The notes under the pieces: generated by a model
Databases searched by the model: none
What the model was told of the DNA's origin: nothing
Seen by the model: only the letters and a program-made list of their open reading frames with translations
Program-made: the position numbers and the translations under genes
Shown: positions 16,459-30,835 of the stretch, one piece after another
How positions within the stretch are numbered: the stretch's first letter is position 1
Layout of the letters: each line of letters starts with the position of its first letter
Source: Candidatus Gastranaerophilales bacterium
GTDB taxonomy: Bacteria > Cyanobacteriota > Vampirovibrionia > Gastranaerophilales > Gastranaerophilaceae
NCBI GenBank assembly: GCA_944325865.1
Contig: CALVBS010000001.1
Coordinates: 248,001-312,000, forward strand
Direction of reading: 5' to 3'
DNA: 64,000 nt

Positions 16459-17391
16459 ATGAAAGTTGTTATTCTCGGAAAAGACGGAATGCTTTTGAAT
16501 TTAATCAGGGGGGCAATGCTTGCAAATGTTGAAATTTGCGGAGTACTACGCTATGAGAGAACTGTCAAATCAAGACTTTCACTATTTTTTTTGGATTTTT
16601 TCAAGAGCTCGCCGGCACTTACCATAATAAAAAAATATAAAATTCCGGATTTAACTTTTAATTCAGCAAATTCGAAAGAATTTAAAGAGTTTTTATTAAA
16701 AGAGAACATTGATGTTGTTCTGGTGGGCACATGGCGGGAAAAGATTTCAAAAGAAGTTATAGACCTGCCCGTAATCGGAACAATAAACGTGCACCCTTCA
16801 CTCTTACCAAAATACAGAGGCCCTAATCCTTATTTGCAAACAATACTTTACGGTGAAAAATATTCCGGTGTGACTTTTCATCTTATGAGCGAAAAGTTTG
16901 ACGCAGGCTCAATACTTGCACAGAAAAAGATTGAAATTCTGGAGGGCGATACCGGAAAAGAACTAAAGAACAAAACAGTATTTCAGGCAAGACTAATTTG
17001 TACGGAATTACTGGACAAACTGCAAAGCGGTTTCGTAATCCCTGTAGAGCAGGATGAAAAAGAGGCAACCTATTACGGAAACGTAAAGCCGGAAGATATG
17101 ACCCTCAACTTTGAAAAAGAAACATCCGTTGAGCTGTTACGGCGAATAAGAGCATTTCATCCGTGGCTTCCTGCATACTTTCAGTACAAGAATGTATTTT
17201 TCAAGCTTAATCCTTATGAAGTAAAAATAGTAAATCAAAGCGGTCAAACAGGTAAAATTATTGAAAAAGGGGATTTATCGCTAACTATTGCAACAAAAGA
17301 CGGCAAAGCTTTAAAATGCGGGAAATTAAAACTTTATCGTTTGGAAAATTTCACAAACTTATATATAAAATATTTTGTTAAGTTAACCTAA
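16459..17391 (+). CDS. Formyltransferase of the Fmt / ArnA-N family
   Basis: This 310-residue protein has a formyl-transferase N domain with the Asn-His-Asp catalytic set, N110 and H112 in INVHPSLLPKYRG and D148 in SEKFDAGSIL. A C-terminal Formyl_trans_C-like beta domain (about 205-305) follows. This suits 10-formyl-THF-dependent transfer to Met-tRNA or to an amino sugar. Sequence around KYRGPNPYLQ differs from classical Fmt (RWRGAAPI), so it may be a paralog rather than the housekeeping enzyme. Its last 4 bases overlap the end of the convergent pilin gene. Confidence 0.75.
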   Translation: MKVVILGKDGMLLNLIRGAMLANVEICGVLRYERTVKSRLSLFFLDFFKSSPALTIIKKYKIPDLTFNSANSKEFKEFLLKENIDVVLVGTWREKISKEVIDLPVIGTINVHPSLLPKYRGPNPYLQTILYGEKYSGVTFHLMSEKFDAGSILAQKKIEILEGDTGKELKNKTVFQARLICTELLDKLQSGFVIPVEQDEKEATYYGNVKPEDMTLNFEKETSVELLRRIRAFHPWLPAYFQYKNVFFKLNPYEVKIVNQSGQTGKIIEKGDLSLTIATKDGKALKCGKLKLYRLENFTNLYIKYFVKLT

Positions 17392-18176
17392 TAACTAACC
17401 TTATGCGGATAATCATCAGGTATCTTCCAATTATTCATTTGAATTAATGTTGTACAATAACCATGTAATTTAGAATCGACTACTTGACCTTTACACCCTT
17501 CGTATAACATATCTATTGTACCATCCCAACGATATTTGCTAGGCTCAAAACCTTTACCATGGTGATATTTCCAAGTATCTCCACCTCCTATGGGTTTAAA
17601 ATTAAAGGTAAATCGACATATTCCGGTTGCTTCAGCATCTTGTTTTGTCATACATTTTTCGGGGTTAGACGGGTAAAAATAATAACCTCTGCTATAATAT
17701 GCCGTTGAGGTTGCGAGAGCACTATTATCCGGGAAATAAACAATAAATGTTCCGTCAGCAAGAGTTTCGGTTTTAAGAATTTTCATATATGGAGCAAGAT
17801 ATTTGTTAAACCATTTTTCAGCTTCAGATGACCCTGGGACAGGATTTCCGTCTTTATCAAATTCGGCACCGGTTACATCATCATACCAGTATATTTTGTC
17901 ACCATAATCAACTTCAGCCATTTTGACTGCCTGATTTATAGCGGAATAAAATTTCTGTAATCTTGTTTCGACAACCCTGTTGTTATTCTTTTGAATTAGT
18001 GCTGGCAGGGTTAATGCTGCAACGATACCAATAATACCCAGTGTAATAAGAACTTCAGCCAGGGTAAATGCGGCTTTACGGTTATCTGCAGAGTATGTTG
18101 AAAAACACTCCGGCACATTCGTACCAGCTCCATTACAAGGAAGGCTTTTGGATTCTATATCCTCTAAATTACTCAA
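17388..18176 (-). CDS. Type IV pilin-like protein, leader interrupted by a G tract
   Basis: The intact frame from TTG 18176 gives 262 residues with a class III prepilin signature: RKAAFTLAEVLITLGIIGIVAALTLPALIQ, with cleavage expected before F37. Family proteins are pseudopilins or pilins of type II/IV systems. The TTG has no ribosome site. Upstream are a strong promoter, an AAAGGAGAG site and ATG 18246, but a run of ten G (18207-18216) puts that ATG out of frame. With nine G the gene would run unbroken from 18246 and encode a 285-residue protein with a 59-residue leader. It is either phase-off or a sequencing slip. Confidence 0.8.
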   Translation of the reverse strand: MSNLEDIESKSLPCNGAGTNVPECFSTYSADNRKAAFTLAEVLITLGIIGIVAALTLPALIQKNNNRVVETRLQKFYSAINQAVKMAEVDYGDKIYWYDDVTGAEFDKDGNPVPGSSEAEKWFNKYLAPYMKILKTETLADGTFIVYFPDNSALATSTAYYSRGYYFYPSNPEKCMTKQDAEATGICRFTFNFKPIGGGDTWKYHHGKGFEPSKYRWDGTIDMLYEGCKGQVVDSKLHGYCTTLIQMNNWKIPDDYPHKVSY

Positions 18177-18246
18177 AAGTTCAAGCGGAGAGCTTAAATC
18201 AGTTTGCCCCCCCCCCGGAAACCCTTGTTATAACTACATTTTGCAT
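18177..18246 (-). other. Out-of-frame 5' part of the pilin gene
   Basis: ATG 18246, with AAGGAG about 7 bases upstream, begins MQNVVITRVSGGG and then meets a TGA in the present frame after 15 codons. Removing one G from the tract joins it, with no stop, to the pilin frame at 18176 (23 extra residues). This is probably the true translation start in the on state. Confidence 0.6.
18207..18216 (-). repeat. Homopolymeric G(10) tract (candidate contingency tract)
   Basis: Ten consecutive C on the plus strand (G on the coding strand) lie inside the pilin leader, encoding a Gly run. Such tracts are prone to slip during replication. In a genome this AT-rich a 10-base G run is very unlikely by chance. 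Confidence 0.8.
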
Positions 18247-18285
18247 ATTAACTCTCCTTTAAAATAAAAATAATTTACAAAATAA

Positions 18286-18314
18286 ATTATACATAATAAT
18301 CATAAATATTGCAA
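18286..18314 (-). promoter_or_regulatory. Promoter of the pilin gene
   Basis: On the minus strand TTGCAA (18314-18309), a 17-bp spacer and TATAAT (18291-18286) precede the ribosome site and ATG 18246. It is the same element pair and spacing as the 6S RNA promoter. Confidence 0.65.
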
Positions 18315-30085: not shown

Positions 30086-30835
30086 TCAATAATCTTCACC
30101 GACCTCATATATATCACCGCGTTGAATTTCATCATTAATTATTGATTCATCAAGGCCTCCGGTATGCTGGAGAGAATCACCTGAAGAAAATTTATTTGAC
30201 ATAATCGAAATTTCAAACACATCATTTTGGTACTGGTTTGGTCCTTTTAATCCGTTAACATCAAAATAAATTCTGCCGCATCTTGTTGATGTTCTGTCCA
30301 AAACTTCTCCGGTATTATTACCGTCCGCATCAGTAACATTCTGTTTCCAATTATAAAAACACTTGCCTGATGAAGTATTGTCATTATGAATTGACACAAA
30401 ACTTCCATCTTTTAAAACAAGTCTTCCTTTATCTCTCAATATCGAATTCATATTACCGGTTTTACCGCTTCCGTTATTTGCACGTTTAAATTGTTTTATG
30501 GTATATTCACCTCCGCATTTGGAGTTTAAAACATCTTGCTTGGTACAAATTTCTATAGGTGCAAGGTATTTTGCAAAACCGTTAACTATATCTTCATGAC
30601 TTTTTCCTCCATCGAAGATTAACCAGTATTCATTAGGGGTTCCCATATCATTACTGTATAGAACAAGTGCATTAGCAATAACAGAATACATTTTTTTAGC
30701 CTGTTGCAGCAAAACCTTTTCTCTATAATTTTGTATCAACTGCGGTAATGTCATGGCTGCCACAATACCGATAATACCAAGTGTTATTAAGACCTCAGCC
30801 AGTGTAAAGGCACGATTATAAGTAGTTTTTAGCAT
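30086..30835 (-). CDS. Type IV pilin-like protein (intact)
   Basis: This 249-residue protein has a short 9-residue leader MLKTTYNRA, a cleavage site before FTLAEVLITLGIIGIVAAMTLPQLIQ, and then a soluble globular part with four or five Cys residues. The N-terminal helix is almost identical to that of the pilin at 17388, but the leader is short and carries no G tract. An AAGGAG ribosome site precedes ATG 30835. Divergent XRE regulator and operator sequences lie upstream. Confidence 0.85.
   Translation of the reverse strand: MLKTTYNRAFTLAEVLITLGIIGIVAAMTLPQLIQNYREKVLLQQAKKMYSVIANALVLYSNDMGTPNEYWLIFDGGKSHEDIVNGFAKYLAPIEICTKQDVLNSKCGGEYTIKQFKRANNGSGKTGNMNSILRDKGRLVLKDGSFVSIHNDNTSSGKCFYNWKQNVTDADGNNTGEVLDRTSTRCGRIYFDVNGLKGPNQYQNDVFEISIMSNKFSSGDSLQHTGGLDESIINDEIQRGDIYEVGEDY

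Follow-up and report, generated by a model that had tools for sequence, protein, structure and literature searches.

The G10 tract and the pilin-like gene

The window, the whole 64,000-nucleotide stretch of DNA that was analysed, contains a single G or C run longer than six, a G10 tract on the minus strand at 18207-18216. When the window was dinucleotide-shuffled 100 times, no G10 run arose, and the tract is not a chance event. It begins 30 nt past the A of an ATG at 18246-18244, which is preceded on the same strand by the Shine-Dalgarno (SD) sequence AAGGAGAGTT at 18250-18259 (AAGGAG at 18259-18254). The spacing between the SD, the ATG and the tract is kept across the genus. A sequence-only reading of this DNA had placed a strong promoter upstream. 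TTGCAA-17-TATAAT is indeed present (minus strand, 18286-18314), but its match to 10 of 12 consensus positions is unremarkable in AT-rich DNA (8 such sites in the region vs 5.6 expected) and alone does not rise above background.

With the ten Gs of the sequenced state, the ATG frame encodes MQNVVITRVSGGGAN, a mini-ORF of 15 codons (18199-18246) closed by the TGA at 18201-18199, 5 nt 3′ of the tract. Two stops in the pilin frame, TAG at 18236-18234 and TAA at 18230-18228, lie just 5′ of the tract. With 9 or 12 Gs, one uninterrupted ORF of 285 or 286 codons runs through a leader of 59 or 60 residues, reaches FTLAEVLITLGIIG and ends at the stop at 17388. The post-tract part of the leader (18069-18206) is open for 46 codons in the pilin frame and has no ATG in that frame. 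The earlier claim that the G10 run throws the ATG out of frame is confirmed, including its coordinates, SD and start codon, as is the reopening of the frame at 9 or 12 Gs. Within the leader, a terminator-like hairpin with a T-run (GTACGAATGTGCC; minus strand, 18110-18127) was found as a consensus match. Other cassettes have related leader segments, GTNVPE or GTIVPE, as though the frame had absorbed a dispersed palindromic repeat.

The mature pilin starts at the F of FTLAEVLITLGIIG (17388-18068, minus strand) and carries an N_methyl domain (PF07963) and DUF6613 (PF20318). The protein exceeded the cut-offs of PF07963, the prepilin cleavage/methylation motif (25.6 bits vs 21.2), and TIGR02532 (19.7 vs 16.3), but fell below those of all the curated full-length pilin and pseudopilin models (ComGE, GspG, GspH, ComGC and PilA). 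Its C-terminal part is DUF6613. We therefore call it pilin-like, without a subtype. The prepilin motif is the ground for assuming that the pilins described here assemble into pili. As the sequence-only reading had noted, the leader of a second pilin in the window (30086-30835) is short and lacks a tract.

Distribution and reading frame of the cassette

The genome to which the window belongs (2.03 Mb, 14 contigs) has 18 G tracts of at least 10 (10-12 G). Thirteen of them lie about 30 nt 3′ of an SD-ATG and 5′ of a prepilin gene, forming an SD–ATG–~30 nt–G10-12–leader–pilin cassette. Of its 64 prepilin-motif genes, 59 were recovered, and the tract fronts 13 of these 59 (about one fifth); two of the 13 pilin cassettes are ON. 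The locus noted originally is thus one of 13 in its genome, and the family has hundreds, which share an apparently exchangeable cassette. Very large prepilin repertoires are found in the genus genomes G001-G012, where the window pilin has as many as about 150 matches in a 2-Mb genome.

Pattern matches to the cassette fall in Candidatus Gastranaerophilales and Candidatus Scatousia assemblies, the group from which the window probably derives. G10 tracts are present in all 13 genus genomes and the SD-ATG-N20-36-G9 pattern in 12 of them, with reversed controls near zero; across the class, the full SD-ATG-tract pattern was detected in 118 of 382 genomes, nearly all in one family. A shared start cassette fronts dozens of pilin genes per genome across this Gastranaerophilales family. 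In two of the genomes (G010 and G001), many contig ends lie no more than about 50 bases from a G tract, which suggests that the tracts or the repeated cassettes break assemblies.

Tract loci were sampled in the genus and in a small number of other genera, with one genome per species, yielding 131 cassettes fused to the pilin frame, mostly from the genus, and 45 separated from it. The window locus belongs to the fused class. An internal pilin start 3′ of the tract was considered and rejected: 91 of the 131 fused copies have no start codon there, those of most others are weak, and only 3 have an ATG with an SD. The fused leaders contain no stops in 3623 codons, as compared with 0.09 per codon in the other frames, partly by construction, because the class is defined by openness; the independent point for the class is the loss of start codons. 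The post-tract leaders of L336, L351, L352 and L038 include in-frame repeat-like peptides (RHCETRSVEAI, HPELVSGSQ, MLNLFQHL), yet are open far downstream.

The notion that ON and OFF states would occur as random thirds was contradicted by the data, which led to an analysis of frame bias. Of the 131 fused cassettes, 103 carry one G too many (+1), 17 are in the other wrong frame (+2) and 11 are in frame, which leaves 120 out of frame. Among 83 non-redundant cassettes, the corresponding numbers are 62, 14 and 7. Tract length follows the geometry of the locus, in that loci that would be ON at 9, 10 or 11 Gs mostly carry 10, 11 or 12, ruling out a mutational equilibrium of tract length alone. In an earlier set of 118 loci, 97 were at +1, as compared with at most 77 in 20,000 length permutations, a significance that the relatedness of the cassettes makes indicative only. 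The few offsets from other genera are less one-sided.

The sequences flanking the tract conform to this register. Within 12 nt 3′ of the tract, the ATG frame meets a stop in 67 of the 83 non-redundant cassettes and the third frame in 33. A stop closes the pilin frame 5′ of the tract in 75 (42 in a control frame), and all three stop codon types occur among these OFF-register stops. We take this pattern to reflect selection for an OFF state that is short and tight. The sequence-only reading had named homopolymer sequencing error, here including assembly error over tracts that are truly in frame, as the main alternative. G runs are error-prone and the genomes are draft assemblies, with many MAGs among the named relatives. 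Errors, however, cannot know the frame, whereas the observed lengths covary with both the upstream and the downstream spacing at more than 100 loci, the flanking stops fit the observed length, and tracts internal to other genes are in frame in 8 of 11 cases. Error is therefore strongly disfavoured, and we regard it as scarcely credible.

In-frame loci number from 0 to 3 per sampled genome, and the ON fraction is about 7-8% in the fused and separated classes alike. ON and OFF lengths both occur naturally, the 11 in-frame copies being spread across loci and species. Near-identical copies exist that differ by one G; L270 is an example, with two copies, one ON and one OFF. The prevalence of out-of-frame cassettes could also mean that they are silenced relics, decaying pilins frozen out of frame by the tract, and the leaders have absorbed repeat-like sequence. 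We judge this very unlikely, as the pilin frames and leaders are intact (with the leader stops absent from a class defined by openness), the 10-12 G tracts persist together with their start signals, and some loci are in frame.

The cassette spreads independently of the ancestry of the pilins. In a quick tree of the 59 pilins from the window genome, the tract requires 12 changes, as compared with 11.9 with shuffled labels, and at least 7 of the changes are forced by supported branches. Moreover, L024 and L025 are 81% alike in cassette DNA but 21% alike in the mature pilin past residue 30. The scattered tract and this pair indicate that the cassette is gained and lost, or exchanged, independently of the pilin. 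Glycosyltransferase and autotransporter-like genes also follow the cassette, and the cassette-bearing non-pilin genes are in frame in some cases and out of frame in others. The tracts of the window genome outside the 13 pilin cassettes include one on a DUF4422 glycosyltransferase with a start of this kind and internal ones in an AlgX-like and an autotransporter-like protein. In L016 (G000:C3:124603-128614), a DUF4422 glycosyltransferase with a G12 tract in frame, the native start appears to have been replaced by a pilin-type cassette (MLKHNRRDNFRQ-GGGG-KILVCYHKK). Internal G10/G11 tracts were observed in an autotransporter-repeat protein (L022, G000:C5; in frame) and an AlgX/DHHW-like protein (L017, G000:C3; out of frame). 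The genes bearing tracts point to surface structures: a prepilin domain in the cassette pilins, and DUF4422, autotransporter-repeat and AlgX-like proteins among the others.

Separated cassettes as a putative attenuator

The earlier reading had set as a refuting condition that homologs start 3′ of the tract. Such homologs do occur in some relatives, and there the tract belongs to a leader mini-ORF facing a masked SD. In this separated class (45 copies, relatives only), the G-tract mini-ORF is followed by a pilin with its own start, an ATG with an SD in 43 of 45 copies. A segment that lies between the tract and the pilin can pair with the pilin SD or start (CCTCCG/CGGAGG, CTCCAAA/TTTGGAG, GCCTCCA/TGGAGGT, TTTCTCCTTT/AAAGGAGAAG and ATTTGCGAAT/ATTCGCAAAT). 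The mean duplex score was 17.3 vs 12.1 for shuffled sequences, the largest shuffle mean being 13.0, and RNA folding predicted a masked SD in 43 of 44 copies, with a mean probability of 0.92 vs 0.37 after shuffling. As 30 of the 45 copies come from one genome (G009) and are mutually related, these values represent only about six independent helix variants.

Exactly one frame of the mini-ORF passes the masking, anti-SD strand in 39 of 44 copies, and the observed tract length corresponds to OFF in 41 of 44. A repeat-bearing leader ORF with one frame reaching a predicted RNA structure 5′ of the pilin is thus found in these relatives. As for control by an intrinsic terminator, many copies have a hairpin with a T-run, but for a large part of the biggest subfamily the usual ON frame stops short of the hairpin. 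L246, L230, L197, L270, L277, L298 and L329 exemplify the arrangement of mini-ORF, anti-SD, hairpin (often with a T-run) and separate pilin start. An Rfam search with the leaders returned no family, with only a sub-threshold match to a Rickettsia sRNA. The separated class is a putative phase-variable translational attenuator, in which, according to the folding models, the frame of the mini-ORF would decide whether ribosomes open the masked pilin SD.

The separated copies also bear on programmed recoding, in which a tract stably one G too long would yield low amounts of prepilin through RNA-polymerase slippage (-1) or ribosomal +1/-2 frameshifting and nothing heritable would switch. In the fused class, the +1 offset is kept across lengths, geometries and species, the stops bracket the tract in exactly the +1 register, and 31 of 42 near-identical cassette pairs have the same length, all as recoding would have it. 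The registers are opposite in the attenuator class, however, where ON would take one G more than observed in 28 of 44 copies and one fewer in 9, and so no single frameshift direction fits. The existence of in-frame alleles and the mixture of in-frame and out-of-frame states among the non-pilin cassette genes also argue against it. Taken together, we consider recoding unlikely, though less remote than sequencing error or relics.

A probable default-OFF pilin repertoire and its relation to known systems

Phase variation of the pilin, as first proposed, is still the best explanation, with slippage as its presumed mechanism. The states are uneven, most copies being held in one OFF frame. As in contingency loci, a slippable homopolymer at which unit changes shift the reading frame is found in the window and, analogously, at the 131 fused loci. 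We believe that the G10 tract is probably the part that slips in a poly-G translation-start cassette serving a default-OFF, phase-variable pilin repertoire. The ribosome would start at ATG 18246 and enter the tract after about 10 codons. With 10 Gs, as sequenced, it would end immediately at the TGA and no prepilin would be made; with one G lost or two gained, the start would be fused to the pilin ORF. The most likely route for the loss or gain is slipped-strand mispairing at replication. The long leader would stay cytoplasmic and be cut off by the prepilin peptidase at A|F, and because it is removed, its content would hardly matter. With nearly all cassettes OFF, the cell would hold a mostly silent, individually switchable pilin repertoire. 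Slippage in cells, a pilus phenotype and a benefit are what we infer from the sequences.

Free sliding of the tract would fill the two OFF frames about equally, whereas +1 far exceeds +2, so that selection, inherited lengths or directional slippage is needed. Cells might switch ON most readily from the on+1 OFF length, by analogy with C. jejuni, in which G8-G9 tracts tend to gain units and G10-G11 tracts to lose them (reported in PMC4085013). MutL scores above the family cut-off in 12 of the 13 genus genomes, which we counted against slippage; in meningococcus, mismatch repair has no effect on the switching of G10-G13 tracts (PMC4085013). The wider proposal, of family-wide default-OFF pilins with an exchangeable cassette that has spread between distant pilins and onto unrelated surface genes and acts in two forms, an N-terminal frame switch and a translational attenuator, seems to us evenly poised between holding and failing.

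If the reading is correct, each cell carries dozens of pilins, nearly all kept off by one device, giving a combinatorial surface in which slippage of a run could change which pili are made. It would also explain why gene callers would mis-start or truncate cassette pilins in draft genomes. Phase variation is known mostly from pathogens, and we found no report of it in the open-access literature for Gastranaerophilales, gut relatives of cyanobacteria.

Campylobacter, Neisseria and Helicobacter have poly-G contingency loci, with G8-G13 homopolymers in surface-structure genes. The present loci resemble them in the G homopolymer, the surface-structure gene and ON/OFF control by reading frame, but differ in that the tract is part, with the start codon and leader, of a homologous cassette shared by dozens of paralogous pilins and some genes unrelated to them, and in that one OFF register is strongly preferred. 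The vlhA genes of Mycoplasma gallisepticum are similar in having many paralogs, each with its own repeat and most OFF, but their GAA repeat acts in the promoter region, whereas the cassette acts on the reading frame.

For the separated class, the nearest precedent is the pil1 leader of Streptococcus gallolyticus, in which repeat length in a leader ORF controls a downstream pilus gene: at two loci, pil1 and pil3, GCAGA repeats set the length of the leader-peptide ORF, which controls the pilus operon via a transcription terminator (PMC3894217). The separated class differs in its G homopolymer, its predicted SD-masking helix (plus hairpin) and its roughly 30 loci in one genome, and the window locus differs in being a fusion rather than an attenuator. 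In ermC-type translational attenuation, a ribosome stalled by the drug in the leader ORF makes a masked SD accessible. A ribosome on the leader ORF is predicted to free the SD in the separated class as well, but there the heritable leader frame, rather than a drug-stalled ribosome, would decide. If true, such an attenuator would turn a heritable base slip into gene control in a new way.
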